From Niastella koreensis GR20-10 (GTDB lineage Bacteria; Bacteroidota; Bacteroidia; Chitinophagales; Chitinophagaceae): DNA of 64,000 bases. The notes under the pieces were generated by a model that was given only the letters and a program-made list of their open reading frames with translations, was not told the DNA's origin and did no database searches. Positions 27,177-48,871 of this stretch are shown here, piece by piece. The first letter of the stretch is position 1; each line of letters opens with the position of its first letter. Where the stretch lies: assembly GCF_000246855.1 (NCBI RefSeq), contig NC_016609.1, forward strand, positions 8,878,744-8,942,743, read 5' to 3'. The translations under genes and the position numbers were made by a program.

Positions 27177-27183
27177 TATAAGA

Positions 27184-27236: not shown

Positions 27237-27268
27237 ACATAATTACATTAATATATAATCAGGAGCAA

Positions 27269-28732
27269 ATGACTTTCAGGAAAGGTTTTATCACAATCGC
27301 CATTGGAGCAACGGTTTCTCTTGGCTTTTTAGCGCCGCAGCTGAAAAAAGTAGATCCACCTGCACCGGCAGGACCCGTACCTACTGCCAACCAACTGGCC
27401 TGGCAACAGATGGAAACCAATGCCTTTGTGCATTTCACCATCAATACATTTACCGATCGCGAATGGGGCAAAGGCGACGAAAGTGAAAAATTATTTAACC
27501 CGGCTGGTACCGATGCCATGCAATGGGCGCGCGTGTTGAAAGAAACGGGTTTCAAAGAAATGATCCTTACCTGTAAACACCACGATGGATTTTGTTTATG
27601 GCCAACCAAATACACCGAACATTCTATAAAGAACAGTCCGTATAAAAACGGCAAAGGCGACATTGTAAAAGAAGCCTCCGATGCCTGTAAGAAATATGGG
27701 TTGAAGTTTGGAGTTTATATGTCGCCCTGGGACAGGAACCGGGCCGATTATGGTACGCCTGACTATGTTACTTATTATCGCAACCAGTTAAAGGAATTGT
27801 TCACCAATTACGGACCGGTTACCGAAATGTGGTTCGATGGCGCCAATGGCGGCGATGGTTATTATGGCGGCGCCAATGAAAAAAGAAAGATCGACGGCAG
27901 AACGTATTATGACTGGCCAACTACATTAGCGATGGTGCGGCAAATACAACCCAATGTTATTTTCTTTAGCGATGCCGGTCCCGGTGCACGTTGGGTAGGC
28001 AATGAAAGAGGCGAAGCCGGAGAAACCAACTGGAATACCATAACACCCGATACCTTATATGCAGGAAAGCCTGGGGTTGAAAAGCTGTTGAACGAAGGTT
28101 CGGAAGATGGTACCGCCTGGATCCCGGCCGAAGTGGATGTATCCATCCGGCCAGGTTGGTTCTATCATAAAAAAGAAGACTCCCTGGTAAAAACACCCGA
28201 GCAACTCTTTAATATATACCTCACTTCAGTGGGGCGCGGCTCGGTCTTGCTGTTGAATGTGCCACCCGATCAACGCGGTATTTTTAATGAAAGAGATGTA
28301 AAAGCGCTCTATGGTTTCCGAAACCTGCTGAACCGCGAATTTGGTAAAAATAAAGCGCTGGGTGCAACAATAACCGCTACCAACTACCGCGGTAAAGAAG
28401 GTGCCTATGCTGCATCTAATGCAATAGATAACAATCTTGATTCATATTGGGCTACAGATGATGGCGTAACTACTGCTTCGCTGGAAATAAATACCGGTAG
28501 GCTGCAAACCATCAAATATGTAATGCTGCAGGAGTATATCAGGTTGGGACAACGCGTAAAATCATTTACAGTAGAAGTGGAAGATAATGGCGGCTGGCAA
28601 CAGGTAGCGGCCGGCACCACCATTGGGTATAAACGCATTTTAAAACTAAACCCGGTAAAGGCCGGTAAAGTGCGGATAAATATTACGGCTTCAAAAGCCT
28701 GTCCGGTAATTTCCAATGTGGCAATTTATTAA
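27269..28732 (+). CDS. alpha-L-fucosidase, GH29 subfamily-B-like, with discoidin-type domain
   Basis: The 487-residue enzyme has an N-terminal hydrophobic segment (about 6-24) that may be a signal peptide. The GH29 barrel (about 40-345) contains NAFVHFTINTFTDREWG, KEMILTCKHHDGFCLW and the likely nucleophile Asp190 in EMWFDGANGG. That motif set is characteristic of GH29 subfamily B, whose members cleave alpha-1,3/4 fucose in Lewis-type structures. The C-terminal 130 residues form an F5/8 type C-like carbohydrate-binding module (AYAASNAIDNNLDSYWATDD). The start has an unusually good ribosome site, AGGAG, seven bases upstream. It lies 92 bp after the other GH29 and 28 bp before GH35. The family is firm; the subfamily is likely. 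Confidence 0.92.
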   Translation: MTFRKGFITIAIGATVSLGFLAPQLKKVDPPAPAGPVPTANQLAWQQMETNAFVHFTINTFTDREWGKGDESEKLFNPAGTDAMQWARVLKETGFKEMILTCKHHDGFCLWPTKYTEHSIKNSPYKNGKGDIVKEASDACKKYGLKFGVYMSPWDRNRADYGTPDYVTYYRNQLKELFTNYGPVTEMWFDGANGGDGYYGGANEKRKIDGRTYYDWPTTLAMVRQIQPNVIFFSDAGPGARWVGNERGEAGETNWNTITPDTLYAGKPGVEKLLNEGSEDGTAWIPAEVDVSIRPGWFYHKKEDSLVKTPEQLFNIYLTSVGRGSVLLLNVPPDQRGIFNERDVKALYGFRNLLNREFGKNKALGATITATNYRGKEGAYAASNAIDNNLDSYWATDDGVTTASLEINTGRLQTIKYVMLQEYIRLGQRVKSFTVEVEDNGGWQQVAAGTTIGYKRILKLNPVKAGKVRINITASKACPVISNVAIY

Positions 28733-28760
28733 TAACAATTACAATCAGTAGTAACATCGT

Positions 28761-30620: not shown

Positions 30621-30746
30621 AGAGGCAGGCTGCAAGCCTCAAGCTGTAAGCAAATACACCGCAACGCGGAACAAAGAACTTAGAACAAAGAACGCTAAAC
30701 CTGGAACCTGAAACCAGCGACTTGAAACCAACTAACATCTTTCATT
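30621..30746. repeat. spacer of degenerate short words
   Basis: The 126-bp spacer between GH35 and GH3 consists of loosely repeated words (CAAGCTGTAAGC, then AACAAAGAACTTAGAACAAAG, then ACCTGGAACCTGAAACC). It includes a CCGCAACGCGG remnant of the small palindrome seen at 51382-51394. No gene or terminator is recognised. Confidence 0.5.
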
Positions 30747-32903: not shown

Positions 32904-33051
32904 AGAATGAAGAATGAAGAATTAAGAACAGAGAAATGAGAAGGGAAAACAAATATTGAATGTCGAATATTGAATGTTGAAGTTTGAGAACAGGACTGAA
33001 AGCTCGCGAATCCTTTCACGTTTGACGTTTCACGACTAAAGAAATTGCAAC
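32904..33051. repeat. spacer of degenerate short words
   Basis: The spacer begins with GAAGAAT words repeated three times (32904-32925). It continues with GAATATTGAATGTTGAA words and ends with TTTCACGTTTGACGTTTCACG. No gene, promoter or terminator can be supported. Confidence 0.5.
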
Positions 33052-35667
33052 ATGAGAAAACTAAGCTTGTTAATATTATTGGGGATTGTAGTTAATCAAA
33101 CAGCTACAAGCCAAACCCGCTACGAACTAAACACCGGTTGGGTATGTTCACCCATTGGGTCGGTAAAGGCAACTGGTGACAAGATCTCTGCGCCATCTTA
33201 TTCCATAAAAGGCTGGATGCCGGCCACCGTGCCCGGCACAGTGCTCACCACATTGCTGGATAATAAAAAAGTGCCCGATCCTTTTTATGGCATGAACAAT
33301 GAAAAGATCCCCGACATTTATAAAACCGGTCGTGACCAGTATACCTATTGGTTTGTAAAAGATTTTACCGAAAAAGCACCGGGTAACGACCAGGTATGGT
33401 TGCAATTCAGAGGTGTAAATTACAGCTGTGATGTTTTTTTGAATGGCAAACAATTGAACAGTGCCCGTCACTACGGCATGTTCCTGCGGCAATCATACAA
33501 CATCACCAAACTGCTGAACAGCAATGGTACTAACCGCCTGGCGGTAATTGTATATCCCATCGACCCGGTTGGTAATCCCAATGGCGGGCAGGGGGGCGAT
33601 GGCACCATTGCCCGCAACGTATCACACCAGTATGTAGCCGGGTGGGACTGGATTCAACCCATGCGGGATCGCAATACCGGCATCTGGGACAAAGTATACA
33701 TTGAAAGAACCGGTGGCGTAAATATCAAAAACCCGCATGTGGTTACTATGGTGCCGGGTGTGCGTAAAGTGGAAGGACCACAAGCGCCGGCCCAGATCAT
33801 GGCCAGTGCAGAACTGGAGAACCCTACCGCAACTAAGAAAGAAGGCGTGCTGCAATACCAGATAGATGGCCAGGTAATAAAACAACCAGTGAGTATAGAA
33901 CCGGGTACAGTGAAAGAAGTAACGCTGCCAATGTACCAGCTCAGCAACCCAAAGCTCTGGTGGCCCAATGGCTACGGTCCGCAGAATTTATATACTTTTA
34001 AGTTTCAATTCCTGGAAGCAGGGCAAACGGTTACCGATGAAGAAACGGTAACAACCGGGGTACGTGAAATTCAGGCAACCTGGAATACAGCCACCCGCAG
34101 CAAACAAATAGCGGTAAACGGACAAAAGATCTTTATCAAAGGTGGCAACTGGATCATTTCCGATGCTATGCTGCGTTTCACCGATCTGCGCTACGATGCC
34201 GAAGTGCGTTATCACCGCGATATGAACCTCAACCTCATCCGTGTGTGGGGTGGGGCGCTCATCGAGCGGCCGGAATTCTTCAATGCCTGCGATAAGTATG
34301 GCATGCTCGTGATGCAGGATTTCTGGATGTCGGGCGATTGCAACGGCCGTTGGGTAGACCCTGCGAAATCGGAAGATCAATGGACACGCAGAAAATACCC
34401 CGACGATCATACGCTGTTCCTGAATTCGGTGGCCGACCAGGTAAAACTGGTGCGTAACCATCCTTCCCTCGCCATCTGGTGTGGCGGCAACGAGATCACC
34501 CCGCCCGAAGATATTCTGCGACCTATGAAGGATTCCATTTTGCCAGCATTGGATGGCACCCGCTGGTTTGTAGATTATTCCAACAGTGATGAGATGTCGT
34601 TAAATACGCTGGGTGGTAATGGCGACGGACCATATGGCATTCAAGATCCTGTTACTTTCTGGGAACATCGTACTTTCCCATTCAATTCAGAAGTAGGATC
34701 AGTAGGAGTAGGTGATTATGAATCCCTGAAGCGTTTTATGCCGGCGGAGAACATGCAGGTGCCGCAATATCCTTCCAACAAAGTTGATCCTGTTTGGGAC
34801 TATCATAAATACATTGGTTACAACCAGTACATCGATCCCTATGGCGCGGCAAAAGACGTAGCCGATTTTTCCAAAAAAGCGCAACTGGTAAATTACGATC
34901 AGTACCGCGCCCTGGCTGAAGGCTTTAGTAACCATATGTGGGACTGGTATACCGGGTTCATCATCTGGAAAACCCAAAATCCCTGGACAGCCTTACGCGG
35001 ACAGATGTATGATTATTACCTTGATCCCAATGCCTGTTTGTTTGGGTTGCGTAATGGCAGCGAACCGGTGCATGTGATGTGCAATCCCACTGATGGCATG
35101 GTTACTATAGTGAACAACAGTTTTGAAGAGCAAAGGAACCTGATGCTGACCGTGCATTTTTACGATCTGAATGGTAAAGACAGTTTTGTTACCCAGGTAT
35201 TCGCCTATATAGAGCCAACATCGATAAAACGAATCTTATCGGTAAAAGAACTGGCAGGCAAGCTGGCAAAAGACAAAGGTGTGTTCCTTTCCCTGCAATT
35301 ACTCGATGAAAAAAAGCAGGTAATAAGCGATAACTGTTACTGGCTGCCCGATGCCAACGGTAATTATTCCGGTTTGCAGTCAATGGCGCCGGCAACATTG
35401 AAAATAAAAGCTACCCAAACGGGCAAAGGAAAAATAACCGTAACGCTCACCAATGCAGTGAACAATCCGGTTGCCTTCTTTAACCGGGTAACCCTGCTCG
35501 ATGCCAAAACAAAAAGCCGGGTGATGCCGGTGTTCTATAGCGATAACTATTTCTCTGTATTACCCGGGGCCGAAAAGACGATCACCGTAGAATCTGACAA
35601 TTCTAATCCACTTCTAATCTCTATAGAGGGATGGAATGTTACTCAACTTGCGGTACCGGTTTTATAG
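33052..35667 (+). CDS. secreted GH2 enzyme, beta-mannosidase / exo-beta-glucosaminidase type
   Basis: The 871-residue enzyme has a signal peptide (about 1-20), a GH2 sugar-binding domain (about 25-220, with GWDWIQPMRDRNTGIWDKV) and an immunoglobulin-like domain (about 225-340). The TIM barrel (about 345-640) carries the acid/base Glu481 in WCGGNEI and the probable nucleophile Glu547 in FNSEVGSVG. Two further sandwich domains follow. The NTGIWD and GGALIERPEFF motifs place it with exo-beta-glucosaminidases and the plant mannosylglycoprotein endo-beta-mannosidases rather than with LacZ. The second group cleaves the Man-beta-1,4-GlcNAc bond of N-glycans, which would complete the enzyme set of this operon. 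The family is firm; the specificity is inferred. Confidence 0.93.
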   Translation: MRKLSLLILLGIVVNQTATSQTRYELNTGWVCSPIGSVKATGDKISAPSYSIKGWMPATVPGTVLTTLLDNKKVPDPFYGMNNEKIPDIYKTGRDQYTYWFVKDFTEKAPGNDQVWLQFRGVNYSCDVFLNGKQLNSARHYGMFLRQSYNITKLLNSNGTNRLAVIVYPIDPVGNPNGGQGGDGTIARNVSHQYVAGWDWIQPMRDRNTGIWDKVYIERTGGVNIKNPHVVTMVPGVRKVEGPQAPAQIMASAELENPTATKKEGVLQYQIDGQVIKQPVSIEPGTVKEVTLPMYQLSNPKLWWPNGYGPQNLYTFKFQFLEAGQTVTDEETVTTGVREIQATWNTATRSKQIAVNGQKIFIKGGNWIISDAMLRFTDLRYDAEVRYHRDMNLNLIRVWGGALIERPEFFNACDKYGMLVMQDFWMSGDCNGRWVDPAKSEDQWTRRKYPDDHTLFLNSVADQVKLVRNHPSLAIWCGGNEITPPEDILRPMKDSILPALDGTRWFVDYSNSDEMSLNTLGGNGDGPYGIQDPVTFWEHRTFPFNSEVGSVGVGDYESLKRFMPAENMQVPQYPSNKVDPVWDYHKYIGYNQYIDPYGAAKDVADFSKKAQLVNYDQYRALAEGFSNHMWDWYTGFIIWKTQNPWTALRGQMYDYYLDPNACLFGLRNGSEPVHVMCNPTDGMVTIVNNSFEEQRNLMLTVHFYDLNGKDSFVTQVFAYIEPTSIKRILSVKELAGKLAKDKGVFLSLQLLDEKKQVISDNCYWLPDANGNYSGLQSMAPATLKIKATQTGKGKITVTLTNAVNNPVAFFNRVTLLDAKTKSRVMPVFYSDNYFSVLPGAEKTITVESDNSNPLLISIEGWNVTQLAVPVL

Positions 35668-35684
35668 TTTCAGGTTGCCGGTTA

Positions 35685-35767
35685 CCGGTTACCAGTCACC
35701 AGGAAGGCAGGCTATGTCTAATAGCGGGTTACGAATGGAAACCCGGAAACCGGAAACTGGTAACCGG
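35685..35767. repeat. inverted repeat of CCGGTTACC words
   Basis: CCGGTTACCAGT (35685-35696) and its exact reverse complement (35756-35767) stand 59 bases apart after the GH2 stop. Additional CCGGTTACC and GGAAACCGG words surround them. The structure resembles the spacer hairpin at 8098-8203 but with different words. No gene is seen between 35668 and 35900. Confidence 0.7.
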
Positions 35768-35900
35768 CGACATTTCCTGGGAGGATTGCTATTGCCAATT
35801 GCCTGCCCTGCCTGCAACCGGTATAAGGTATTCCCCGTCTAATAAATTGCAGATATTTACTATTTTACAAACCAATCTGCAATAAACCCCCATATATAAT

Positions 35901-37898
35901 ATGTTCTGTAGGTGGCTTGTTTTGTTCTGTTTGTTCCTGTTCCATACCTGTTTGAAAAGTAATGCCCAGCAAAAAAATTCCATTGGCATCCAACTGGTGG
36001 ATATAAAGGCTGGTACATTCAGCATGGGATCGGAACGCGGGAAAGAGGATGCCGACGAGAGCCCCGTACATGATGTCACCATTTCCAAAGGTTTCAAAAT
36101 GTCGGCCACCGAAATCACCAACAAGCAATACGAAGCATTTGATCCGGAACATAACAAACTGCGTGGTAAACAAGGCTTCTCCTTAAAAGACGATGAAGCG
36201 GTAGTTTTTGTGAGTTATGACGAAGCGGTCGCTTTTTGCGCCTGGTTATCAAAAAAGGAAGGCAAGCCTTATCGCCTGCCTACAGAAGCAGAATGGGAAT
36301 ACGCATGCCGCGCCGGCACTACCACCGATTATTTTACCGGTAATGAGCTGCCAGCCGAATACCAGAAATTACAACATACCAATCGCACCCCGGTACCCGT
36401 TTCCCTGCAGGTGGCGCAAACCGCCCCCAACGAATGGGGATTGTACGATATGCATGGTAATGTGGAAGAATGGTGCAGTGACTGGTATGGCGCTTATGTC
36501 GCCAGCCCCCAAACAGACCCGGTGGGCCGGCAAACCGGTATGAGCCGCGTTACCCGCGGCGGCAGCCACAATACCCCTGTGCGTTACCTGCGCTCGGCTA
36601 ACCGGCAGGGTATGTTACCGGAAGACAAACACTGGCTCACGGGCTTCAGAATAGTACAGGGCGCCCTGCCCCGTACAAAAGCGCTACCGGCTGAGCCAAC
36701 ACCTGCCAATTGCCTGCAGGTAAGCCAGCAAAAATATGTATGGCAAAAAGAAACCCAGCCGGTTTTCGAGGCGCCTGTTACTTATGTAATAAAACCCGAT
36801 AGCAGCACGGGTATTCCATTCTATAAACATAATCATTGTCCGGCCATCACCTGGTGCCCCAACGGCGATCTGCTGGCCGCCTGGTTCAGCGCCAATAATG
36901 AAAATGGCCGTGAAATGACGATCCTGGCCAGCCGCTTACGGGCCGGTAAAAAAACATGGGATACCGCCTCCCTGTTTTTCATGGTGCCCGACAGAAATAC
37001 TACCGGCACTTCACTTGTATACGATCAAAAAGGAACATTATACCATATTAATGGCGTAGAGGCCGCCGGCGACTGGCAAAACCTGGCCATGGTTATGCGC
37101 ACCAGTACCAATAACGGCGCCAGCTGGTCGAAACCGGTGTTGATAGAACCCGAACATGTAAAACGCCATCAGGTAATTGCAGGTTCACAGGTTACCCGCG
37201 AGGGCTGGCTGGTACAGTTTTGTGATGCCGACCCCAGCTCACGTGGAGGCACAGCCATGTACATCAGTAAAGACAAAGGCACTCATTGGACAACGCCTTA
37301 TACGTTACCTAATACACCTAAGTTTAAAGACAGCGCCATAGGTGGCCTGATTGCGGGTATCCATGGCAGTGCCGTACAACTGAAAGACGGCCGTTGGCTG
37401 GCCCTGGGACGTAATGATAATATTAAGGTAGATAGTGTGACAGGCGAAAGAATGACCATGAGCATCTCCGGCGATGGCGGCGCCAGCTGGCAATACAGCC
37501 CTTCCATTTTTCCGCCCATTAGCAGCGGACAGCGCCTGGTACTGCGCCGACTGAATGAAGGCCCTTTGTTAATGGTCTCTTTTACGCATTGTCCCGGTAA
37601 ATCAACCGTGGAAGGCATGGACTTTACCAGGCCCAATGGCGAAGTATATAAAGGGTATGGCATGTATGCCGCCCTTTCTTATGATGAAGGCAAAACCTGG
37701 CCGGTAATAAAGCTATTGACCGATGGACACCTGCGTCAGCTCAATGGCGGCGCCTGGACCGGCATGTTCAGAATGGACAGCACGCATTCGGAACCAAAAG
37801 GATACCTGGCCGCTACACAAACCCCCGATAATGTAATACACCTCATCAGCAGTAACCTCTATTATCGATTTACATTGGCGTGGTTGCAGCAACCATAA
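35901..37898 (+). CDS. SUMF1/FGE-like domain fused to a sialidase-like (BNR) domain
   Basis: The 665-residue secreted protein has a signal peptide (about 1-23) and a formylglycine-generating-enzyme-like domain (about 25-254: TFSMGSERG, RLPTEAEWEYACRAGT, DMHGNVEEWCSDWYG, RGGSHNTPVRYLRSANR, LTGFRIV). A six-bladed sialidase-like part follows (about 275-660). It carries four Asp-box motifs, NNGASW, KDKGTHW, GDGGASW and YDEGKTW. The FGE domain has no cysteine in the segment after RGGS where true FGEs carry their catalytic pair, so it is probably not a sulfatase activator. The sialidase part lacks a clear FRIP motif (NHCPAI stands there), so sialidase activity is doubtful. It is the last gene of the sigma/FecR-linked operon. 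No sulfatase gene is in the window. Confidence 0.88.
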   Translation: MFCRWLVLFCLFLFHTCLKSNAQQKNSIGIQLVDIKAGTFSMGSERGKEDADESPVHDVTISKGFKMSATEITNKQYEAFDPEHNKLRGKQGFSLKDDEAVVFVSYDEAVAFCAWLSKKEGKPYRLPTEAEWEYACRAGTTTDYFTGNELPAEYQKLQHTNRTPVPVSLQVAQTAPNEWGLYDMHGNVEEWCSDWYGAYVASPQTDPVGRQTGMSRVTRGGSHNTPVRYLRSANRQGMLPEDKHWLTGFRIVQGALPRTKALPAEPTPANCLQVSQQKYVWQKETQPVFEAPVTYVIKPDSSTGIPFYKHNHCPAITWCPNGDLLAAWFSANNENGREMTILASRLRAGKKTWDTASLFFMVPDRNTTGTSLVYDQKGTLYHINGVEAAGDWQNLAMVMRTSTNNGASWSKPVLIEPEHVKRHQVIAGSQVTREGWLVQFCDADPSSRGGTAMYISKDKGTHWTTPYTLPNTPKFKDSAIGGLIAGIHGSAVQLKDGRWLALGRNDNIKVDSVTGERMTMSISGDGGASWQYSPSIFPPISSGQRLVLRRLNEGPLLMVSFTHCPGKSTVEGMDFTRPNGEVYKGYGMYAALSYDEGKTWPVIKLLTDGHLRQLNGGAWTGMFRMDSTHSEPKGYLAATQTPDNVIHLISSNLYYRFTLAWLQQP

Positions 37899-38350
37899 GA
37901 CCAGCTTCATGAATTGGCACAAACTTTCCAACCGTTAATTTACTAACGGTAACACTATATAGTGTCGGTGAGGTACTGATTGTAATCAGCTTTTTGTAAT
38001 TTTTTTAAAAGTATGCAACAGATCATTTAAAATTGTTGCCTGATAAAAAAGAATTGTGATTTCTTAATTACAAAAAATGAATCAGCGCACACTTATAATA
38101 TGCCATCATGTGTAGCCTTTGCTATGCATGATGGGGAATTATAGCCATCAGTATAGCCATTCGTGTTCATTCAATCAGGAATAACCAAAACGCTCAGCAC
38201 TTCACCGTTCCTTAACTGAAAAGGGTTTTAACACCGTCAGGGGTTAACAAAATGATTTTGCAGTCTGAAAATGACGGCTGTGTATAGCTATGTCATTTTG
38301 CAACCAACCTTCTCCTGGGAGTTATTTAATCATCATAAAACACACTGCTA
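37899..38350. promoter_or_regulatory. 452-bp regulatory spacer with several palindromes before the third susC
   Basis: No gene is seen. Notable elements are an inverted repeat ACCGTTA-N6-TAACGGT (37931-37950) and a perfect 14-bp palindrome ACACTATATAGTGT (37952-37965). CTGATTGTAATCAG (37976-37989) is followed by T-rich sequence, which may end the upstream operon. An inverted repeat of 8-bp arms, CCATCATG / CATGATGG, lies at 38103-38110 and 38127-38134. Operator and terminator roles are inferred from position only. Confidence 0.5.
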
Positions 38351-41300
38351 ATGAGACACGTTCGCTTGTTAATCGCATTCATTCTGCTGCATTCAGCGGT
38401 TCTGGCGCAAAACCGGCAAATTTCCGGTGCTGTCAAAGACAAGGCTGGTACTGCTATTCCCTCCGTTTCAATTAAAGTAAAAGGAAAAAATAATCAGACG
38501 GTCACCGATATAAACGGTGTATTTAGTTTACAGGTACCGGCTGGTAACATTCAACTCGTAGCCAGTTCTATTGGCTATAAGGAAACAACAATTGATGTAG
38601 CCGCCAGTCAAAGCACAGTTGACATTAACCTGGAAGAATCAGGAGAACAATTGGGCGAGGTGATAGTGACCGCATTGGGCATATCGAAGGAATCCAGGAA
38701 AGTAGGGTATTCTGTATCAACCGTTGCAGGCGACCAGTTAACCCAGGCAAGGGAAACCAATGTAGCTAATTCTTTAAGCGGCCGCGTGGCTGGCTTAAAG
38801 GTATCAGGAACCAATAGCGGTCCTGGTGGAACCGTAAAACTATTGTTGCGTGGGTTGCCAAGTATGAATAACCCCGGCTCGCCGTTGTTTGTAATTAATG
38901 GCGTACCGATGGACAATACGCAAAGGGGGGCTTCCAGCGAATGGGGCGGCGCCGATAACGGCGATGGCATCGGTAACATTAACCCCGATGATATTGAAAC
39001 CATGACGGTGCTGAAAGGCCAGGCAGCTTCTGCCCTCTACGGTTCAAGAGCCAGTAATGGTGTAATTATTATCACCACCAAATCTGGCAAGCGCAATGAT
39101 TTTTCAGTAGACTATAACCTGAATGTGATGGTAGACAAAGCCATCGACTATACCGATTTTCAATATGATTACGGTCAGGGTGTAGGTGGTCTTAAACCCG
39201 CTACAGCTGCGTCCGCACAGGCATCGGGCCGGTTAAGCTGGGGCGCCAAACTGGATGGTTCGCAGGTAATTCAGTTCGATGGTAAAATGTATCCGTATTC
39301 TGCACAAAAAGACAATATCAAAAACTTTTACCGGGCCGGTCCATCTGTAACCAATACTGTGGCAGTTTCAAGAGGCGGCGAGAACGGTGCGTTCCGTTTG
39401 TCCATGTCAAACCTGAACAATTCCTCCATTGTAAGGGGAAGTGGGTTAACCCGGAAAACCATTAACCTGAACGTTGATCAGAACATTACAGATAAACTGT
39501 CGGTAAAACTGGTTGGCAATTATATCGACGAACAATCACAGAACAGGGCGCAGTTGAGTGATGGTCCCATGAACCCGAACAACGGCGTTTTTCTGGCCAC
39601 TAATATTAATGAGAACATCCTGGCACCCGGCTATGACCCGGTTACTGGTTATGAAACGCAGTTCAGCGATGATGAATATGTAACCAATCCGTGGTTTGTG
39701 GTGAACCAGTATCACAATGACCTGGGCCGTAAACGGTTGATCTCTTCAGTACTTGGAAAGTACCAGTTCTCAAAATGGTTGTATGCCCAGGCACGCGTTG
39801 GTTATGATATCACCCACGACCGGTTGTTCAGGGTAGAACCCTGGGGTACAGCTTACACTACCAACAGGGCGGGTAATTTACAGGACCTGGCATCAACTGA
39901 ACGTTTTGAATTGAATGTGGATGGATTGATCGGCGCTACGCATAAAATAACAGAAGACATTTCATTTGATGCGGCCATTGGCGCCAACCTGCGTAAGAAC
40001 CAGGAAGAAAAAATAAAGATCGGCGGTGGTCCGTTCATCCTGCCATATCAATATAGCTGGAATAACGTACAAAATTTTAACCGCGATTATTCTTTCTACA
40101 AAACAGAAGTTCACTCGGCATATTATACACTCGATCTTGCGTATAAAAACTTTTTAACAGTTGGAACCACCGGGCGTTATGATGCTTATTCTACCCTGCC
40201 GAAAGACAATAACAACATTTTCGTTCCCTCGGTGTCTGCAAGTTTGATCTTTTCTGAATTAACCCACATCAAGAGTCTTGACTTTGGTAAACTCAGGGCT
40301 TCTTATGCGGTAACCAGCAATGAATTATCAAAAGCCTACCAAACCCAGGTGTATTATTCGCTTGGGAACAATTACAATGGCGTGCCTATTGGCCAGTTCA
40401 ATACTTCATTGCCAAGCGGTTTGTTAAAACCATTTACCGTTGCTGAGTTTGAGATCGGGACCGAATTAAGATTTTTGGCTAACCGGCTGAATATCGATGT
40501 AGCCTATTTTACAAAGAAAACAAAGAACGAGATCATGGGGGCTACCTACAGCATTTCAACCGGTTATACCAGTGGTTACATAGCCAATGGCCAAACCCAG
40601 AACAAGGGCCTGGAATTGCAGATCAGCGCGGTACCAATTAAAAGCAAAGACTTTAGTTGGACGGCTACCTTCAACTTTACTTCCATTGCCAACAAAGTAT
40701 TGAAAACAGATGCAGCCGGCAACAACGTAAACCTTGGGCAGGACCGGGCAACATTGGGCAATGCGGTAACCGCTTATGTGAAAGGCATGTCGGGTCCGCA
40801 GATCCTGGCGTATGATTATAAATACAATTCAAAAGGCGAGATGATAGTAGATGCATCCGGATATCCTGTCCGTCGCGACACATTGCTGGCCCAGGGTAGT
40901 GTATTGCCAAAGCAATACGGTGGATTTAATAATGAATTTGTTTATAAGGGTATTTCGTTGTCATTCCTTATCGATTACAATTATGGGAATAAAATACTCA
41001 GCGCCACCAGCTATTATTCTATTTACCGTGGTCTGAATAAGATGACGCTCGAAGGACGCGATGGCATTACAAAAGGTGTGCTTGACAATGGCAATCCCAA
41101 TACCACCAAAGCCGATGCCCAGGGGTATTACACCGCTGTGGCGCAACGGATAACCAAAAGCAGTGTGCTGAATGGCGACTTCATCAAACTACGTCAGGTA
41201 ACAATAGGGTATAGCATACCAGCAGAAATAGTCAGCAAATCGGTGATCTTCAGATCGGCTACCATTTCACTGGTGGGACGCAACCTGTGGACCATCATGA

Positions 41301-41428
41301 AAAACAGTGATAACATAGATCCGGAATCAAATTTTGGTTCCACCATTAATTACATTGGAATTGAAGGTACCAGTTTGCCTTCTACCCGGACTTATGGCGT
41401 TAACCTGAATTTGAAATTTAAAAAGTAA
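38351..41428 (+). CDS. SusC/RagA-family TonB-linked outer-membrane transporter
   Basis: The 1025-residue protein has a signal peptide (about 1-19, ending AVLAQ), a carboxypeptidase-regulatory-like domain (about 22-100) and the plug (about 105-255, ALYGSRASNGVIIITTKSGK). The barrel ends in LNLKFKK. There is no STN domain. It resembles the SusC at 3391 closely in the plug (ALGI-K--RK, QARE-N-AN-LSG). Its partner susD follows after 12 bases, and both partners resemble the 3391/6568 pair. The genes behind them encode an FG-GAP/ASPIC protein and a vanadium haloperoxidase rather than glycosidases, so the imported ligand may not be a simple glycan. The family is firm. Confidence 0.94.
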   Translation: MRHVRLLIAFILLHSAVLAQNRQISGAVKDKAGTAIPSVSIKVKGKNNQTVTDINGVFSLQVPAGNIQLVASSIGYKETTIDVAASQSTVDINLEESGEQLGEVIVTALGISKESRKVGYSVSTVAGDQLTQARETNVANSLSGRVAGLKVSGTNSGPGGTVKLLLRGLPSMNNPGSPLFVINGVPMDNTQRGASSEWGGADNGDGIGNINPDDIETMTVLKGQAASALYGSRASNGVIIITTKSGKRNDFSVDYNLNVMVDKAIDYTDFQYDYGQGVGGLKPATAASAQASGRLSWGAKLDGSQVIQFDGKMYPYSAQKDNIKNFYRAGPSVTNTVAVSRGGENGAFRLSMSNLNNSSIVRGSGLTRKTINLNVDQNITDKLSVKLVGNYIDEQSQNRAQLSDGPMNPNNGVFLATNINENILAPGYDPVTGYETQFSDDEYVTNPWFVVNQYHNDLGRKRLISSVLGKYQFSKWLYAQARVGYDITHDRLFRVEPWGTAYTTNRAGNLQDLASTERFELNVDGLIGATHKITEDISFDAAIGANLRKNQEEKIKIGGGPFILPYQYSWNNVQNFNRDYSFYKTEVHSAYYTLDLAYKNFLTVGTTGRYDAYSTLPKDNNNIFVPSVSASLIFSELTHIKSLDFGKLRASYAVTSNELSKAYQTQVYYSLGNNYNGVPIGQFNTSLPSGLLKPFTVAEFEIGTELRFLANRLNIDVAYFTKKTKNEIMGATYSISTGYTSGYIANGQTQNKGLELQISAVPIKSKDFSWTATFNFTSIANKVLKTDAAGNNVNLGQDRATLGNAVTAYVKGMSGPQILAYDYKYNSKGEMIVDASGYPVRRDTLLAQGSVLPKQYGGFNNEFVYKGISLSFLIDYNYGNKILSATSYYSIYRGLNKMTLEGRDGITKGVLDNGNPNTTKADAQGYYTAVAQRITKSSVLNGDFIKLRQVTIGYSIPAEIVSKSVIFRSATISLVGRNLWTIMKNSDNIDPESNFGSTINYIGIEGTSLPSTRTYGVNLNLKFKK

Positions 41429-41440
41429 AACATCGTAACA

Positions 41441-43057
41441 ATGAAACAATTACTTCTCTATATAAGTGTGGGGGTAGTGCTGTTGGTAACGGGCTGTACC
41501 AAAGACTTTGAAACAATAAATACCGATCCAACACAAACCCCGCCTTCCAATTTTAACTCAGACTACTTTTTATCGGGCAGTCAGTATAATTATATAAATG
41601 GCATAACCGGGTATAATGGTTCCATCCTGTTTCAGAGTGGTTGGGCGCAGATCTTTGCTTCAACCTCCTCAGGTGCTGCCAACTATTACAGCAATATGGA
41701 TAAATATGTAGCATCGGGCAATACCAACGATTATTCCGGCCGCGGTTGGGACCTGGGTTATAAAGGTGCCCGGCTTGACCAGGAAATTATAAAGAATTAC
41801 GGCGCCAATGCCGACAAGGTAAATGTGGTAAGCGCCGCTACGGTAATGAAAGTATTGTGCATGCAGTACATTACTGACCTTTATGGCGATATTCCTTATT
41901 CCCAGGCTCTGCAGGCATCTGCTAATGTAACAACGCCTGTATATGATAAACAACAGGATGTATATAATTCCATGTTTGCCGATTTGGATGGCGCCTTGTC
42001 GAAGTTCGATGCGACAAAAGCGAAACCTGCCGCCGACCTGTTCCCGTACAAAGGCGATGTGGCCTTATGGAAAAAGTTTGGCTATTCACTGATGTTACGC
42101 CTTGCTATGCGACTGACCAAAGTGGATATTGCCACGGCACAAAAATGGGCCGAAAAAGCAGCTGCCGGCGGAACCCTGGCATCCGTTTCGGAAGATGCCT
42201 GGATTAAAGGAGATTATTCCAATGGTTATCAAAGTGAAAATTCCCGCTCGTTGATTACCCCCGCCGATTACTACCAGGTAAGATGGAGTAAACTGCTGAT
42301 GGATTATTTGAAAGCTGTCAATGATCCCCGCGTACCTGTTATTGCCGAAATACCACCCGCCGGACTGGCTGCCAGTCAGGACCCAACAAAAACAGGTGAT
42401 AATACATTTTCAAAGCAAATGGGCCTGCCCAATGGCTGGGACCTTAATGGAGGCGCCACTGATATCAGCAAAGCACCCGGTTATCCCGGTGGTTCAGGTA
42501 CCGGCGGCGATTTTACTCCTATTGGCTTATACAGCCGGCCACGTACTGCCATCTATACAAATTTGAGCAGTCCGCAGTTTGTATTGACGTATGCCGAATC
42601 AGAACTGCTGTTAGCCGAAGCAAAAGCAAGAGGCTGGAATGTAGGGGCCACTACTGCTGCCCAGCATTACAAAAATGGGCTTTCTGCAGCTTTACAATCA
42701 TTGACTCCTTTTGGGGCCAGCGCCGTTATTAGTCCAACAGATGCTGATGCCTATGCAACGGCCCATCCATTGGATGTAAGTTCTTTGAATGCTTCCTTAA
42801 AAATGATCAATGAACAATACTGGGCAACCACTGGTATCCTGATGAATTTCGTGGAAGCCTGGAATAACTGGAAAAGATCGGGCTATCCGGCTTTAAGTCC
42901 GATTGTATATGTAGGTAATTTTTCAAAAGGACAAATACCCAGACGGCAATTATACCCCACAACAGAATCAACCGCCAACCCGGCCAATTATAAAATTGGC
43001 GTGAGTAATTTGAATGGTGGAGATGATTGGATTTCGAAGATGTGGTGGGATAAGTAG
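41441..43057 (+). CDS. SusD/RagB-family surface lipoprotein
   Basis: The 538-residue protein has lipobox VTGC (Cys at residue 19), then an acidic linker DFETINTDPTQ. SusD helices include MQYITDLYGDIPYSQALQ, and the C-terminus ends MWWDK as in the SusD at 6568. It is encoded 12 bases after its SusC. The protein should bind the ligand at the cell surface and lid the SusC pore. It is followed by a 133-bp word-repeat spacer and then the FG-GAP/ASPIC gene. The ligand is unknown. The family is firm. Confidence 0.93.
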   Translation: MKQLLLYISVGVVLLVTGCTKDFETINTDPTQTPPSNFNSDYFLSGSQYNYINGITGYNGSILFQSGWAQIFASTSSGAANYYSNMDKYVASGNTNDYSGRGWDLGYKGARLDQEIIKNYGANADKVNVVSAATVMKVLCMQYITDLYGDIPYSQALQASANVTTPVYDKQQDVYNSMFADLDGALSKFDATKAKPAADLFPYKGDVALWKKFGYSLMLRLAMRLTKVDIATAQKWAEKAAAGGTLASVSEDAWIKGDYSNGYQSENSRSLITPADYYQVRWSKLLMDYLKAVNDPRVPVIAEIPPAGLAASQDPTKTGDNTFSKQMGLPNGWDLNGGATDISKAPGYPGGSGTGGDFTPIGLYSRPRTAIYTNLSSPQFVLTYAESELLLAEAKARGWNVGATTAAQHYKNGLSAALQSLTPFGASAVISPTDADAYATAHPLDVSSLNASLKMINEQYWATTGILMNFVEAWNNWKRSGYPALSPIVYVGNFSKGQIPRRQLYPTTESTANPANYKIGVSNLNGGDDWISKMWWDK

Positions 43058-43060
43058 GCG

Positions 43061-43176
43061 AGTTGATAGGGTTGATATAGTTGATACAGATTTTTCGTAA
43101 TAGTTAAGAAGTAGGAAGTAGTAGGTTGAAATGTTGACAAGTTAACATGTTGACGAGGTTGAATATCCTACTTCTT
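43061..43176. repeat. word-repeat spacer with 11-bp complementary arms
   Basis: The spacer begins with GTTGATAG words (43062-43086) identical over about 25 bases to those at 14104-14128. AAGAAGTAGGA (43106-43116) and its exact reverse complement TCCTACTTCTT (43166-43176) enclose further GTTGACA/GTTAACA words. No gene or T-run terminator is seen. Confidence 0.7.
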
Positions 43177-43190
43177 ACTTCTCATTCTTT

Positions 43191-46100
43191 ATGCTTATGA
43201 TCCGATTAGCCATCCATACCACCCTGGTATTCTTTGTGACAACAAGAGTAATGGGGCAAGCTCCGCTTTTTGAACTCCTCTCACCCAAACAAACCAACAT
43301 AAAATTCGAGAATCATATCAGTGAAACTGAGAATCTGAATGTACTGGCGTATGAATATTTTTATAATGGTGGTGGCGTGGCTGTGGGGGATATCAATAAT
43401 GACGGACTGGAAGATCTTTTTCTGACCTCGAATATGGGTGAGAACAAGTTGTTTCAGAACATGGGTAACCTGCAATTCAGGGATATTACCAAAGAAGCAT
43501 GCAAAGAATTATCAGGAAGACCCGGTGGCTGGAAAACAGGCGCCACCATGGCCGATGTAAATGGCGATGGCTGGCTGGATATTTATGTTTGTTACTCCGG
43601 CAAGGTCACCGACGATATGCGCCGGAACCAGTTATTCATTAACCAGGGCAATGGCACGTTTAGAGAAGAAGCGGCCGCTTATGGCCTCGACGATAAAAGC
43701 TATAGCACCCAGGCTGCATTTTTTGATTACGACAACGATGGCGATCTCGATCTGTTCCTGTTAAATCATAGCGTAAAGAAGATCGATAACATGGAGTTTG
43801 CCCGGTATCGGGATGATGTAGATGAACTGGCCGGTGATAAACTCTACGAAAATCAGAACAATCATTTTGTAGATGTTTCCAAAAAAGCAGGCCTCCGGCA
43901 AAATCCACTAACGTTTGGCCTGGGTATAGCCATTTCCGATATTAATAAAGATGGCTGGCAGGATGTATATGTGACCAACGACTACAACGAGCCTGATTAC
44001 CTGTACATCAACAATGGCAACGGCACATTTACTAATATAGCCGATAAAAGCCTGCGTTACCTGTCGCAGTTTTCCATGGGCGTTGACATTGCCGATTTTA
44101 ACAATGATGCCCTGCCGGATATTATTACGCTCGATATGTTGCCCGAAGACAACCGGCGACAGAAATTATTACAGTTGCAGGAAAACTATGAATCCTTTTC
44201 TTTAATGGTGAACCAGGGCTTAAACCCGCAGTATATGCGTAATATGCTGCAACTGAATAATGGTATTATTCCCTCGGCGGCTAACCGGGAAGGAGGTTTG
44301 AATGTTAATCGCGAGGTATCCAACTCCCCCTCCACTGGAGGGGGGCGGGGGGAGGCTTCGTTTTCCGAGATCGGCCAACTGGCCGGCGTTTCAAATACCG
44401 ACTGGAGCTGGTGCCCCCTGATGGCCGATTATGACAACGATGGGTACAAAGACCTGTTCATTACCAATGGTTATTTCCGCGACTATACAAACAAAGACTT
44501 TTTACGTTACTGGGGCGATTACAAGGTTAAAAAAGCAGTAGACCGCGAACCGGTTTTACTCATGGACCTCATTCGCGCCATGCCCTCAACTTCAGTTATA
44601 AATTATATTTTCAGGAACAACCATAATTGCACCTTTTCCAACCAGCAGAAACAATGGGGGATGGATAAGCCGTCTGTTTCATCAGGGGCGGTATATGCAG
44701 ATCTGGATAACGATGGTGATCTTGATTTGGTGGTTAATAACATTAATGAGAATGCGTTTGTGTACAGGAACACCGCACGGGAGAGCTCGAAGGCCGGTTA
44801 CCTTTCCCTTATTTTACATTATAAAAAACCAAACTGGTTTGCGCTTGGCACAAAAGTATATGTGTACGATCGTCATGGCGTGCAATATGAAGAGCTAAAC
44901 CCCACACGCGGCTATTTATCCTGCGTTACCACGCGCCTGCATTTTGGGCTCGATAGCACCACTACCGTTGATTCCATAAAGATCATTTGGCCCGATCGTA
45001 CCGTGCAATTACTCACCCGGGTAGCAGCTAATCAGCAACTCACTATTAACTACGATCAACCCAAACCTGTTATCGACGACGATCCCATATATGCCGGCAA
45101 AACCATCTTTACACCTGCCGGTAAATTATTCACCTATACCCATACAGACCAAAGTGAAAATGATTTTAAACGCCAGTTGCTGATGCTGTTCATGTATTCA
45201 AAATGCGGACCGGTAATAGCAAAAGGCGATGTAAATAAAGATGGACTCGAAGACCTGTTTGTAAGCGGTGATAAAAACAAAGCCGGCAGGATCTATATTC
45301 AAAATGCAAAAGGATCATTTTACGAAGCGCCGGATTGCGTCATCGGCGATGAGAACACCTCCACCATTTCGGCCGCAGCATTTGTGGATGTGGACGGCGA
45401 TGGCGACCAGGACCTGTATGTTGCTAAAGGCGGATACGGATTGTATGAACCTGGCTCGGTAGCCTTGCAGGATGAATTGTATCTCAACGATGGCCATGGG
45501 CAGTTCAAAACGGCTATGGGCGGATTGCCCAATGTAAACGCAAATAGTAAATCGTGTGTACGGCCTTGTGATTTTGATGGCGATGGCGATATAGACCTGT
45601 TTGTGGGCGGCCGGGTGATACCAGGCCGTTATCCGTTAGCGCCTACCTCGTACCTGTTGGTGAACAACGGCAAGGGACAGTTTACTGCTGCTAAAGTGCC
45701 GTTCTCGAACATTGGTATGGTCACCGATGCCCAATGGGTTGACCTTGATAAAGACGGACGAAAAGACCTGGTGCTGTGTGGGGAGTTTATGCCGGTAACT
45801 GTGTTTATGAATACGCCAACCGGGTTTGTAGATAAAACCAGTTCGTACTTTGATAAACCAGCCAATGGTTTCTGGTTTACGTTGCAGATAGCCGATCTGG
45901 ATCAGGATGGCTACGACGACATCATTGCCGGTAACCTGGGGTTGAACTCCTGTTTACACCTATCGGAAAAAGAACCCGGGGTGTTGTATTATGCCGACTT
46001 CGATAACAATGGGTCCATCGATCCCTTTTTTACCTATTACATTCAGGGTGAAAGTTACCCGTTTGTAAGCCGCGATGAATTGAATGAACAGATCTATCCT

Positions 46101-46568
46101 ATGCGCAAGGTCTTCACTTCCTATGCGGCGTATTCAACCGCTACCATCAACGATATTTTTACAAAGGAAGAACTGGCAAAAGCCGGACGCCTGCAGGTAA
46201 CAGAAACCCGCAGCAGGGCTTTTTTAAATAAGTATGGAAAAATGATCCCGGTTGAATTGCCTGTGCAGGCGCAGTTCTCTGTAGTCACCAACATCATTGC
46301 CGATGATTTTAATGGCGATGGTAAAAAAGACCTCCTGCTGTTCGGCAACCATTCCGATAACCGGTTAAAGTTCGGTTGCATCGATGCCAGTTATGGTTGT
46401 TTGCTTACCGGTGATGGCCACGGGAATTTCACTTATGTCAGCCAGCCTCAATCGGGACTGGATGTAAAAGGGGATGTAAAAACCGCCGTGGAATTAAAAA
46501 CCAGGAATGAAAAATATATTATAGCAGGGGTGTGTAACAGCCCCATGCAATTTTATAAAGTACAGTAG
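43191..46568 (+). CDS. secreted FG-GAP/VCBS repeat protein with ASPIC/UnbV domain (CRTAC1-like)
   Basis: The 1125-residue protein has a signal peptide (about 1-22) and two sets of calcium-loop FG-GAP repeats. Examples are DVNGDGWLDIYV, DYDNDGDLDLFL, DINKDGWQDVYV, DLDNDGDLDLVV and later DFDGDGDIDLFV, DLDKDGRKDLVL, DFNGDGKKDLLL. An ASPIC/UnbV-type domain (about 535-625, with LHFGLDS and IKIIWPDR) lies between them. Such proteins form calcium-bound beta-propellers, and the Bacteroidota examples are often next to SusC/SusD genes; their role is unknown. Residues about 358-393 are an in-frame insertion into the usual LNNG-N-G-FSEIG passage. It contains a copy of the GC-rich repeat (44324-44360). 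The haloperoxidase gene starts one base after the stop. Confidence 0.92.
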   Translation: MLMIRLAIHTTLVFFVTTRVMGQAPLFELLSPKQTNIKFENHISETENLNVLAYEYFYNGGGVAVGDINNDGLEDLFLTSNMGENKLFQNMGNLQFRDITKEACKELSGRPGGWKTGATMADVNGDGWLDIYVCYSGKVTDDMRRNQLFINQGNGTFREEAAAYGLDDKSYSTQAAFFDYDNDGDLDLFLLNHSVKKIDNMEFARYRDDVDELAGDKLYENQNNHFVDVSKKAGLRQNPLTFGLGIAISDINKDGWQDVYVTNDYNEPDYLYINNGNGTFTNIADKSLRYLSQFSMGVDIADFNNDALPDIITLDMLPEDNRRQKLLQLQENYESFSLMVNQGLNPQYMRNMLQLNNGIIPSAANREGGLNVNREVSNSPSTGGGRGEASFSEIGQLAGVSNTDWSWCPLMADYDNDGYKDLFITNGYFRDYTNKDFLRYWGDYKVKKAVDREPVLLMDLIRAMPSTSVINYIFRNNHNCTFSNQQKQWGMDKPSVSSGAVYADLDNDGDLDLVVNNINENAFVYRNTARESSKAGYLSLILHYKKPNWFALGTKVYVYDRHGVQYEELNPTRGYLSCVTTRLHFGLDSTTTVDSIKIIWPDRTVQLLTRVAANQQLTINYDQPKPVIDDDPIYAGKTIFTPAGKLFTYTHTDQSENDFKRQLLMLFMYSKCGPVIAKGDVNKDGLEDLFVSGDKNKAGRIYIQNAKGSFYEAPDCVIGDENTSTISAAAFVDVDGDGDQDLYVAKGGYGLYEPGSVALQDELYLNDGHGQFKTAMGGLPNVNANSKSCVRPCDFDGDGDIDLFVGGRVIPGRYPLAPTSYLLVNNGKGQFTAAKVPFSNIGMVTDAQWVDLDKDGRKDLVLCGEFMPVTVFMNTPTGFVDKTSSYFDKPANGFWFTLQIADLDQDGYDDIIAGNLGLNSCLHLSEKEPGVLYYADFDNNGSIDPFFTYYIQGESYPFVSRDELNEQIYPMRKVFTSYAAYSTATINDIFTKEELAKAGRLQVTETRSRAFLNKYGKMIPVELPVQAQFSVVTNIIADDFNGDGKKDLLLFGNHSDNRLKFGCIDASYGCLLTGDGHGNFTYVSQPQSGLDVKGDVKTAVELKTRNEKYIIAGVCNSPMQFYKVQ
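44324..44360. repeat. GC-rich imperfect palindrome inside a coding sequence
   Basis: The sequence CTCCCCCTCCACTGGAG..GGCGGGGGGAGGC lies in frame within the FG-GAP/ASPIC gene and is read as SPSTGGGRGEA. It matches the spacer repeats at 15424-15455, 58718-58757 and, more loosely, 61050-61087. The adjacent residues (NREGGLNVNREVSN) also look foreign to the surrounding family sequence, so the inserted segment is longer than the palindrome. Confidence 0.75.
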
Positions 46569-46569
46569 T

Positions 46570-47979
46570 ATGCCCTTAAGCCACCTTTATTTGTTTGGTA
46601 CATTGTCACGCCGGCGTCTGGTAACAGGCGTCGGCATACTTTGTTTTTTTGTGTGCTTTCATTTTCAGCAGGCCACTGCCCAAACCATGGCGGTAAAAAC
46701 AAAAGAATGGAAGAAAGAAAACATTTTTACCCGGTATTTGCAACCAGCCGTTTTTTCATTATCAAAAGTAATGATGCATGATGTGGTAAACCCACCAGCC
46801 GCTGCCCGTTATTATGCCTATTGTATGCTGGGCGCGTACGAGATCATTTCCCAGCACGATCCGTCAATGATACCACTGGGCAATTTCCTGAATCAATATA
46901 AGCGGTCTGCTATCCCCATGCCTTCAAAACAGTACGATCATCGTATTGCAGCTATTTATTGTATTATGGAAACGGGCAGGCTGATGCTGCCTTCAGGTTA
47001 TCAACTGCAGGACGACGAGGCGCGGTTTATTGCCGAACAACAGAACACAAAGGTTTCCCGTGCTGTAATTGACAGTTCGGTTGCAGTGGGTAGTTACCTG
47101 GCGGCCCGGATAGTAGAGTATTCCAAAACCGACCGGTATGGGAAGTTAAGCGCCCAGTTACGTTATACTCCCGTAAAAGGCGATGCATATTGGTATCCAA
47201 CACCCCCTGCTTATATGGAAGCGGTAGAGCCCAACTGGAAAACCATCCGGCCGCTGGTAATAGATTCCTGTAACCAGTTTGTTCCATTGCCACCCGTTAC
47301 CTTTAGCAAAGACAGCAACAGCGATTTTTACCGCCTGGCCAAAGAAGTGTATGATGTTTCTGTAAAACCCACGGCCGAGCAGTTGAACATCGCTTCGTTC
47401 TGGGATTGCAATCCTTTTGTGGTGGCTACGTCGGGACATATGTCAATCGGGTTTAAAAAGATCAGCCCTGGCGGCCACTGGATGAACATTGCCGCCATTG
47501 CCGCGCAAAAAGCGAATCTGAGTTTTGCCGAAACCATCACGGTGCAAATGCTTACCGGCATCACCATCATGGATGCCTTTATCAGTTGCTGGGATGAGAA
47601 ATACCGCTCTAACCGCATTCGCCCGGAAACTTATATCAACCGTTACATCAACCTGAAATGGCAGCCCTTGCTGCAAACGCCGCCCTTCCCCGAATACACC
47701 AGCGGGCATAGTGTGGTGTCAACCGCCGCTGCAGAAGTGCTTACGTATCTGCTCGGCGATCAGTTGATGTTTACTGACAACTCAGAAGAATTGTTTGAAA
47801 TTCCCGCCCGTTCATTCGCATCCTTCAGACATGCGGCTGCCGAAGCGGCCATCTCGCGCCTGTACGGCGGCATCCATTACCGCGATGCCATCGAAAACGG
47901 ACAACAACAGGGTAAACAGATCGGTAGATTTATCGCAGGCCGGCTAAAATCGGCCGGCGTTCAGCCATTAAAGCCCTGA
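46570..47979 (+). CDS. vanadium-dependent haloperoxidase / PAP2-like phosphatase, secreted
   Basis: The 469-residue protein has a signal peptide (about 1-38, ending ATAQ). It carries the complete vanadate/phosphate-binding triad of the PAP2/haloperoxidase superfamily: KYRSNRIRP (Lys344, Arg351), SGH (His380) and SRLYGGIHYRD (Arg430, His436). Vanadium haloperoxidases oxidise halides with hydrogen peroxide; relatives with the same motifs are acid phosphatases, and sequence alone does not separate them. It starts one base after the FG-GAP/ASPIC stop, so the two are probably translated together. It is followed by an AraC-type gene 31 bp downstream. The superfamily is sure; chloride, bromide or phosphatase activity is not. 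Confidence 0.92.
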   Translation: MPLSHLYLFGTLSRRRLVTGVGILCFFVCFHFQQATAQTMAVKTKEWKKENIFTRYLQPAVFSLSKVMMHDVVNPPAAARYYAYCMLGAYEIISQHDPSMIPLGNFLNQYKRSAIPMPSKQYDHRIAAIYCIMETGRLMLPSGYQLQDDEARFIAEQQNTKVSRAVIDSSVAVGSYLAARIVEYSKTDRYGKLSAQLRYTPVKGDAYWYPTPPAYMEAVEPNWKTIRPLVIDSCNQFVPLPPVTFSKDSNSDFYRLAKEVYDVSVKPTAEQLNIASFWDCNPFVVATSGHMSIGFKKISPGGHWMNIAAIAAQKANLSFAETITVQMLTGITIMDAFISCWDEKYRSNRIRPETYINRYINLKWQPLLQTPPFPEYTSGHSVVSTAAAEVLTYLLGDQLMFTDNSEELFEIPARSFASFRHAAAEAAISRLYGGIHYRDAIENGQQQGKQIGRFIAGRLKSAGVQPLKP

Positions 47980-48010
47980 TGGGTTCTTTTACAATTCGTA
48001 ACTTTAATGC

Positions 48011-48871
48011 ATGGATGCCGACATTCATACTTTATACGAATCTGATTTTTACCGCATCATGGATTTCCGGTGCCGGTGTACCGATTGCCGTACCTCAAAA
48101 CCGGAATACAATGCCACTTTTTGCATCAGCTTTGTGCGCAAGGGGAATTTCCTGTTCAACGTTTTCCGGCGTTCCCTCGATTCATATACCGGTTGCGTAC
48201 TGGTAACCAAACCCAATTACGAACGCACGGTAACCCACACGCACGATGTACCCGACGAATGCACCATCTTTGAATTTAAAAAGGATTTCTTTGGCTCCCT
48301 GCTCGAACATTATGGCGGCATTCCCTTCTTCCAGGATAACGACTGGCATTCCACGCTCATTAAAACAAGTGCAGAAACGGAGTTCCTGCATTTTCACATT
48401 GTAAAGCTGGTGCTTACCCGCTCGGGCAGCAAGCTGCAAATAGACAATGCCGTAATTGAGGTGATTGAAAAAGTGTTGAGTAATATCACCGATTACAAAC
48501 CAGACCTGAAGATCAATCCGCGTTTAAAGAAGAATCATTTGATTACACTGGAAAGGGCCAAGGAGTACATGGCCGATCATTTTACTGAAGATATTTCCCT
48601 GCTGCAGATTGCCACACATTGTTATGTAAGTCCTTTTCATTTCAGCCGGTTGTTCAAAACCTTTACATCGGCTTCGCCGCATCAATACCTGTTGACACTC
48701 CGGCTGAAGAATGCCGAGTTATTATTGCGCAATACCACACAACCTATGGCCGATGTTGCCTTTACTTCAGGTTTTAATAGTGTAGAACATTTTACCGCCG
48801 CTTTTAAACAGAAATATAATTGTCCGCCTGCTACTTACCGGCAACAGGTTGAAGCACCCACCTTAAAATAG
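48011..48871 (+). CDS. AraC-family transcriptional regulator
   Basis: The 286-residue protein has an N-terminal cupin-like sensing part (about 1-150, unusually Cys-rich near the start: FRCRCTDC). Its C-terminal AraC double helix-turn-helix (about 183-280) includes HCYVSPFHFSRLFKTFTS and FTSGFNSVEHFTAAFKQKYN. AraC proteins usually activate transcription on binding a small ligand. It is encoded 31 bp after the haloperoxidase in the same direction and may regulate the 38351-47979 genes. The CxC and following C in the N-terminus could bind metal or sense oxidants, which would suit a peroxidase neighbour, but that is speculative. The family is firm. Confidence 0.92.
   Translation: MDADIHTLYESDFYRIMDFRCRCTDCRTSKPEYNATFCISFVRKGNFLFNVFRRSLDSYTGCVLVTKPNYERTVTHTHDVPDECTIFEFKKDFFGSLLEHYGGIPFFQDNDWHSTLIKTSAETEFLHFHIVKLVLTRSGSKLQIDNAVIEVIEKVLSNITDYKPDLKINPRLKKNHLITLERAKEYMADHFTEDISLLQIATHCYVSPFHFSRLFKTFTSASPHQYLLTLRLKNAELLLRNTTQPMADVAFTSGFNSVEHFTAAFKQKYNCPPATYRQQVEAPTLK

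Follow-up and report, generated by a model that had tools for sequence, protein, structure and literature searches.

A vanadium haloperoxidase gene recurrently linked to SusC, SusD and FG-GAP/ASPIC genes in Niastella koreensis and other Bacteroidota

Gene content of the locus

We analysed a stretch of 64,000 nucleotides from Niastella koreensis GR20-10 (RefSeq assembly GCF_000246855.1, contig NC_016609.1, positions 8,878,744 to 8,942,743 of the forward strand), hereafter the window, and focused on a run of five open reading frames at positions 38351-48871, in which a Sus-type outer-membrane pair is followed by an FG-GAP/ASPIC protein, a vanadium haloperoxidase (VHPO) and a regulator. The host genome is a single contig of 9,033,684 bases, with Niastella vici and N. 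caeni as the nearest named relatives. The run, entirely on the + strand, opens with a gene for a SusC/RagA TonB-dependent outer-membrane receptor of 1025 amino acids (38351..41428; TIGR04056, 571 bits), with which the conserved block of four genes described below also begins. It continues with genes for a SusD-like_2 (PF12771) surface lipoprotein of 538 amino acids (41441..43057; 213 bits; lipobox LLVTGC), an FG-GAP/ASPIC (UnbV_ASPIC) protein of 1125 amino acids with a signal peptide (43191..46568; FG-GAP_3, 262 bits; UnbV_ASPIC, 77 bits), a ZgVIPO1-type VHPO of 469 amino acids that is predicted to be exported (46570..47979; PAP2, 41 bits; 4CIT, 383 bits), and an AraC-family regulator (48011..48871; HTH_18, 79 bits). 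The successive gaps are 12, 133, 1 and 31 nt; the shared direction, the coordinates and the single base between the ASPIC and VHPO genes, all reported in a first-pass annotation made from the sequence alone, are as described there.

The closest solved relative of the SusC protein is 5fq6 (BT_2264; E 1.1e-95), and those of the SusD protein are 5j5u and the mixed-linkage-glucan binding proteins 6dmf and 6e60. The adjacency of SusC and SusD genes by which Sus-type uptake loci are recognised is present here. The AraC gene lies outside the conserved block: a regulator of this family adjoins the VHPO gene only in Niastella, Longitalea and Foetidibacter. We therefore dropped it as a member of the unit, and the link that the first-pass annotation drew between it and the other four genes holds for those lineages alone.

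The haloperoxidase and its relationship to ZgVIPO1

Among solved structures, the window VHPO is closest to 4CIT, the Zobellia galactanivorans vanadium iodoperoxidase ZgVIPO1, which it matches over residues 48-460, with 44% identity over ~400 residues. The active-site residues W341, K344, R351, S378-G379-H380, R430 and H436 align with W321, K324, R331, S358-G359-H360, R410 and H416 of ZgVIPO1, a numbering that lands on the correct letters of the aligned chain. This alignment confirms the earlier observation that the vanadate site is complete. All 100 VHPO relatives whose genes immediately follow an ASPIC gene keep the same W/K/R/S/H/R/H set. When the predicted structure is superposed on 4usz/4cit, the Z score is 53.1 (root-mean-square deviation 2.0 over 400 residues); other chloroperoxidase-type enzymes, bacterial and fungal, score ~30, algal bromoperoxidases ~19, and acid phosphatases at most 15.7, spanning ~200 residues. 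A plain acid phosphatase, which would have undone the first-pass proposal, is thus disfavoured by sequence similarity, active-site residues and fold, and the alignment together with the structural model supports a ZgVIPO1-type haloperoxidase. To our knowledge, no physiological role has been settled for bacterial enzymes of this type.

Other VHPO paralogues lie beside trehalase and/or GH65 genes at eight loci, one of them in the N. koreensis genome itself (at 8.22 Mb). Several of these loci carry a second VHPO-like gene of 513-520 amino acids, with a gene of 310-323 amino acids, lacking a Pfam match in the one tested, in between.

Recurrence of the gene block across Bacteroidota

We surveyed the gene neighbourhoods of the window VHPO and 80 relatives, obtained in one scan of named genomes and drawn from ~31 named genera and about a dozen families of Bacteroidota. 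An ASPIC gene stands directly upstream of the VHPO gene at 77 of the 81 loci, a figure that is not an unbiased rate because the sample was seeded mostly with ASPIC-linked VHPOs. The exact order SusC-SusD-ASPIC-VHPO, with SusC at position -3 from VHPO, is found at 50 of the 81, and several more are cut by contig ends. The median distance between the ASPIC and VHPO genes is -1 nt, many of the pairs overlapping.

A second, less biased sample covered the whole class and was seeded with the window VHPO alone. VHPOs were present in 54 of 295 genomes. Among 66 VHPOs examined in 60 regions, an ASPIC gene lies no more than four genes away from 47 of the 66 and directly upstream of 32, and a Sus gene lies within five genes of 28. 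With ~5.7 ASPIC genes per genome (20 sampled genomes) and assuming ~4,000 genes, such proximity by chance would be expected in ~1% of cases; no p-value is attached to the recurrence because the loci are related by descent. The remark in the first-pass annotation that similar pairings occur elsewhere is thus borne out by both surveys. Its statement that they have no described function also agrees with our literature search: queries joining ASPIC with both haloperoxidase and SusD, or VCBS with either of these, gave no match, and the papers found on FG-GAP with SusD do not treat the linkage. Judged from the genomes, this linkage of known families is real and widespread, and apparently undescribed.

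The block has several local variants. In four genomes a second ASPIC gene follows the VHPO gene, giving the order SusC-SusD-ASPIC-VHPO-ASPIC. At eight Dyadobacter loci a ThuA-domain gene follows the block downstream of VHPO, with a DUF7133/HEAT/cytochrome c gene in most, companions that differ from the glycosidases of other genera.

The characterised Zobellia enzyme in an ASPIC context

The CHARACTERISED enzyme ZgVIPO1 has a 99% identical copy that shares the ASPIC context, in the order ASPIC-ASPIC-ASPIC-VIPO, in a genome that is presumably Zobellia. In a congener with an 88% identical VIPO, a SusC-SusD pair precedes the ASPIC run at a distance of one gene, and LacI, HAD-hydrolase, GH65 and amylase genes are neighbours. 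Other ZgVIPO1-type VHPO genes sit with genes for an SSF symporter, a sugar kinase and an isomerase-like protein. In one family of the class a ZgVIPO1-like gene (E <= 1e-120) is present in 281 of 390 genomes. The window gene differs from ZgVIPO1 in that its clade has the SusD-like_2 pair immediately upstream. At seven loci in all, ZgVIPO1-type genes directly follow multi-ASPIC runs, and their surroundings include SSF symporter and sugar-catabolic genes.

Co-inheritance and the ASPIC protein

Pairwise distances of the ASPIC and VHPO proteins are strongly correlated over 66 complete blocks (r=0.92), more so than those of SusC and SusD (0.83) or of the Sus proteins and VHPO (0.71-0.76). The block accompanies two distinct SusD lineages, of the PF12771 and PF07980 types, with only 2 changes between them over the VHPO tree, and ASPIC linkage changes at least 11 times over the same tree.

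The window ASPIC protein was modelled confidently by AlphaFold2 (pLDDT 86, pTM 0.86) and has two FG-GAP propeller regions flanking the UnbV_ASPIC domain, the FG-GAP_3 match being spread over 8 stretches. The best match by both sequence and fold is murine CRTAC1 (9etn; fold E 1.6e-28), which covers about half of the protein. The two share an FG-GAP propeller plus an ASPIC domain, while the bacterial protein is twice as large and has a second propeller. Our literature search found no report of CRTAC1 or bacterial ASPIC proteins in nutrient uptake, and we know of no established role for ASPIC proteins in bacteria. In the N. koreensis genome, six of the seven ASPIC genes lie in SusCD loci, two of these loci with a VHPO gene and three without. 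On this distribution, the ASPIC protein looks primarily like a SusCD partner, to which VHPO is an addition.

Neighbouring glycosidases and possible cargo

A cluster of glycoside hydrolase (GH) genes on the + strand (25665..37898; GH29, GH29+F5/8, GH35, GH3, GH2 and FGE-BNR) ends 452 nt upstream of susC. The GH3 enzyme is beta-xylosidase-like, and the nearest solved relative of the GH2 enzyme is an exo-beta-glucosaminidase (CsxA), followed by beta-mannosidases. The intervening region (37899..38350, + strand) contains the palindrome CTGATTGTAATCAG followed by the T-run CTTTTTG, along with other stretches conserved in N. vici; the conserved palindrome and T-run suggest separate transcripts, and thus that susC starts its own transcription unit. 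Carbohydrate-active enzyme (CAZyme) genes are therefore present at the locus on the same strand, though probably on a different transcript.

GH2 orthologues of 81-85% identity lie just upstream of the block in four Niastella and Longitalea genomes; orthologues of 62-64% lie downstream of it in other genera. Genes running in the same direction downstream of blocks in those genera are mostly GH29, GH2, GH92 and GH3, with GH125 and GH20 also found, and VHPOs of the ZgVIPO1 family also adjoin GH65, trehalase and other sugar-catabolic genes. The earlier remark that no glycosidase is present is correct within 38351-48871, but two GH29 genes, GH35, GH3 and GH2 stand directly upstream on the same strand. 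Since GH genes adjoin the block both in the window and elsewhere, the suggestion of a non-glycan cargo, drawn from their absence, is not supported.

A study of plant N-glycan breakdown (PMC9522356) describes the involvement of GH29, GH2, GH20, GH92 and GH3, and one locus that combines GH3 and GH2 with a sulfatase and an AraC regulator. The Bacteroides massiliensis pathway (GH29, GH3 beta-xylosidase, GH2, GH92, GH20, AraC) involves GH families similar to those flanking the block, while the window GH2 is CsxA/mannosidase-like and its linkage specificities, like those of its neighbours, are predicted. From the set for XylFuc N-glycans, GH29, GH3, GH2 and GH35 occur in the window and GH92 and GH20 in relatives, which also have GH125; a peptide N-glycosidase did not turn up at the window locus, where no model-based search for one was made. 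By analogy, an N-glycan-like glycoconjugate might be the cargo of the window's clade, which we offer as a weak guess.

A candidate uptake operon with a halide-peroxidase module

The explanation that we favour, tentatively and with slightly less than even confidence, is that the block is a Sus-type nutrient-uptake operon carrying a dedicated accessory halide-peroxidase module. It draws on the gene order and how often it recurs, the complete active site, the fold, the joint inheritance of ASPIC and VHPO, the ASPIC setting of the near-identical ZgVIPO1 copy, the SusCD-ASPIC loci that lack VHPO and the glycosidases that recur near the block. SusC and SusD would import a glycan-derived ligand, and the ASPIC double beta-propeller, with its CRTAC1-like half, would act as an exported partner of SusCD that ties VHPO to it. 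The VHPO would bind vanadate and, like ZgVIPO1, use H2O2 to convert iodide, and possibly bromide, into hypohalous acid, in a reaction located outside the inner membrane. The most likely purpose would be to consume cell-surface H2O2 while plant, algal or other biomass is attacked, to alter the phenolic or protein portions of an imported glycoconjugate, or both. In Zobellia, fresh brown alga induces vIPO3, which has been discussed in connection with algal defence (PMC9296495); this is consistent with the handling of peroxide or halogens while the cell feeds. Compared with known Sus-type polysaccharide utilisation loci, the locus shares the SusC/SusD pair, a regulator, GH genes alongside and an exported partner encoded after SusD, while its block core has a haloperoxidase in place of a CAZyme, often with no CAZyme in the same run.

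A more specific proposal, which is possible but doubtful, is that the ASPIC double propeller couples VHPO to SusCD and that surface halide oxidation takes part, as a functional step, in acquiring glycans or glycoconjugates, in an undescribed mode of uptake widespread in Bacteroidota. If so, ZgVIPO1 would be part of such a system and not a stand-alone enzyme of halogen metabolism. The conserved place in SusCD operons gives both the VHPO and the ASPIC families a testable context, and the linkage connects the everyday sugar uptake of a major biomass-degrading phylum with the chemistry of halogens and peroxide in soil and sea.

Several points weigh against the uptake-operon explanation. Free iodide is scarce in soil, and we found no assay of any SusCD-linked VHPO in the literature. 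Where ZgVIPO1 has Y263, the window enzyme, whose activity is itself a prediction, has F283, and 94 of the 100 ASPIC-linked members likewise have F; the halide preference may therefore differ. At 36 of 79 blocks there is no co-directional gene within 200 nt downstream, and the N-glycan cargo is a weak guess because GH genes accompany most SusCD pairs. Finally, although ASPIC and VHPO match in their anchoring signals when all loci are taken together (association p = 5e-7), no such association is seen within the SusD_RagB type, and the ASPIC signal does not vary within the SusD-like_2 type; the match may thus reflect ancestry, and we discarded common lipoprotein anchoring as a sign of complex formation.

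Among the alternatives, the one that survives best, though we regard it as unlikely, is a defensive role: during feeding, the enzyme would attack competing microbes with hypohalous acid or quench their signalling, and SusCD and ASPIC would only be co-regulated with it. The predicted export of the enzyme and the antimicrobial nature of VHPO products are in keeping with this, and an operon would couple release to feeding; the tight pairing with ASPIC and the co-inheritance of the two proteins argue instead for a joint physical task.

Rather less probable is that the PAP2-fold enzyme acts on an imported glycan or glycoconjugate as a phosphatase or similar hydrolase, removing its phosphate groups, so that vanadate would be incidental. 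The oxyanion site is common to VHPOs and acid phosphatases, there is a solved structure of a VHPO apoenzyme with a phosphate intermediate (3bb0), the generic PAP2 model alone matches among Pfam models, and sugar genes are neighbours. Against these stand the far closer match to the vanadium iodoperoxidase in both bit score and fold, the invariant Trp of the VHPO site, and the ASPIC context of the near-identical ZgVIPO1 copy.

We consider about equally improbable a reading in line with the phenolic or halogenated cargo suggested in the first-pass annotation, in which the module would act on phenolic or lignin-like material by oxidation or halogenation and SusCD would import the aromatic product. 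Halogenation of electron-rich aromatics by VHPOs is established, and many of the host genera are soil- and plant-associated. The neighbouring catabolic genes, however, encode glycosidases, sugar kinases, isomerases and symporters; no aromatic-ring or dehalogenating enzyme is among the 25 commonest downstream Pfam families (the upstream side was not so surveyed), and the nearest relatives of the SusD protein are glucan-binding and other SusD proteins.

That the gene order is a mere by-product of shared ancestry, without a functional tie between VHPO and SusCD, is very improbable. In its favour, about a quarter of ASPIC-adjacent loci (30 of 109, some cut by contig ends) have no detected SusD within four genes. 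Against it, the order persists across many Bacteroidota families although sequence identity is low, it involves two SusD lineages as well as overlapping genes, and it would decay without selection.

Further features of the locus

The last gene of the upstream cluster encodes a fusion of an FGE-sulfatase-like and a BNR (sialidase-like) domain (35901-37898), and its place upstream of susC is kept in Niastella and Longitalea. The gap between the SusD and ASPIC genes contains a 12-nt perfect inverted repeat (TAAGAAGTAGGA/TCCTACTTCTTA, 49 nt apart, at 43105-43177). A scan for sigma-70-type promoters was uninformative (31 found, 24.7 expected).

The ASPIC gene carries an in-frame insertion of ~33 amino acids (44259..44360, + strand) that includes the dispersed palindrome CTCCCCCTCCNNTGGAGGGGG (core 44324-44344) and is predicted to be disordered, with pLDDT below 50 at residues 363-385. 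The palindrome has 26 forward and 29 reverse matches in the N. koreensis genome, where many sites are counted twice by reason of its symmetry, against 0 for the reversed control. The insertion is missing from the other aligned ASPIC proteins, except that a paralogue from the same genome has a different insertion at the same place.

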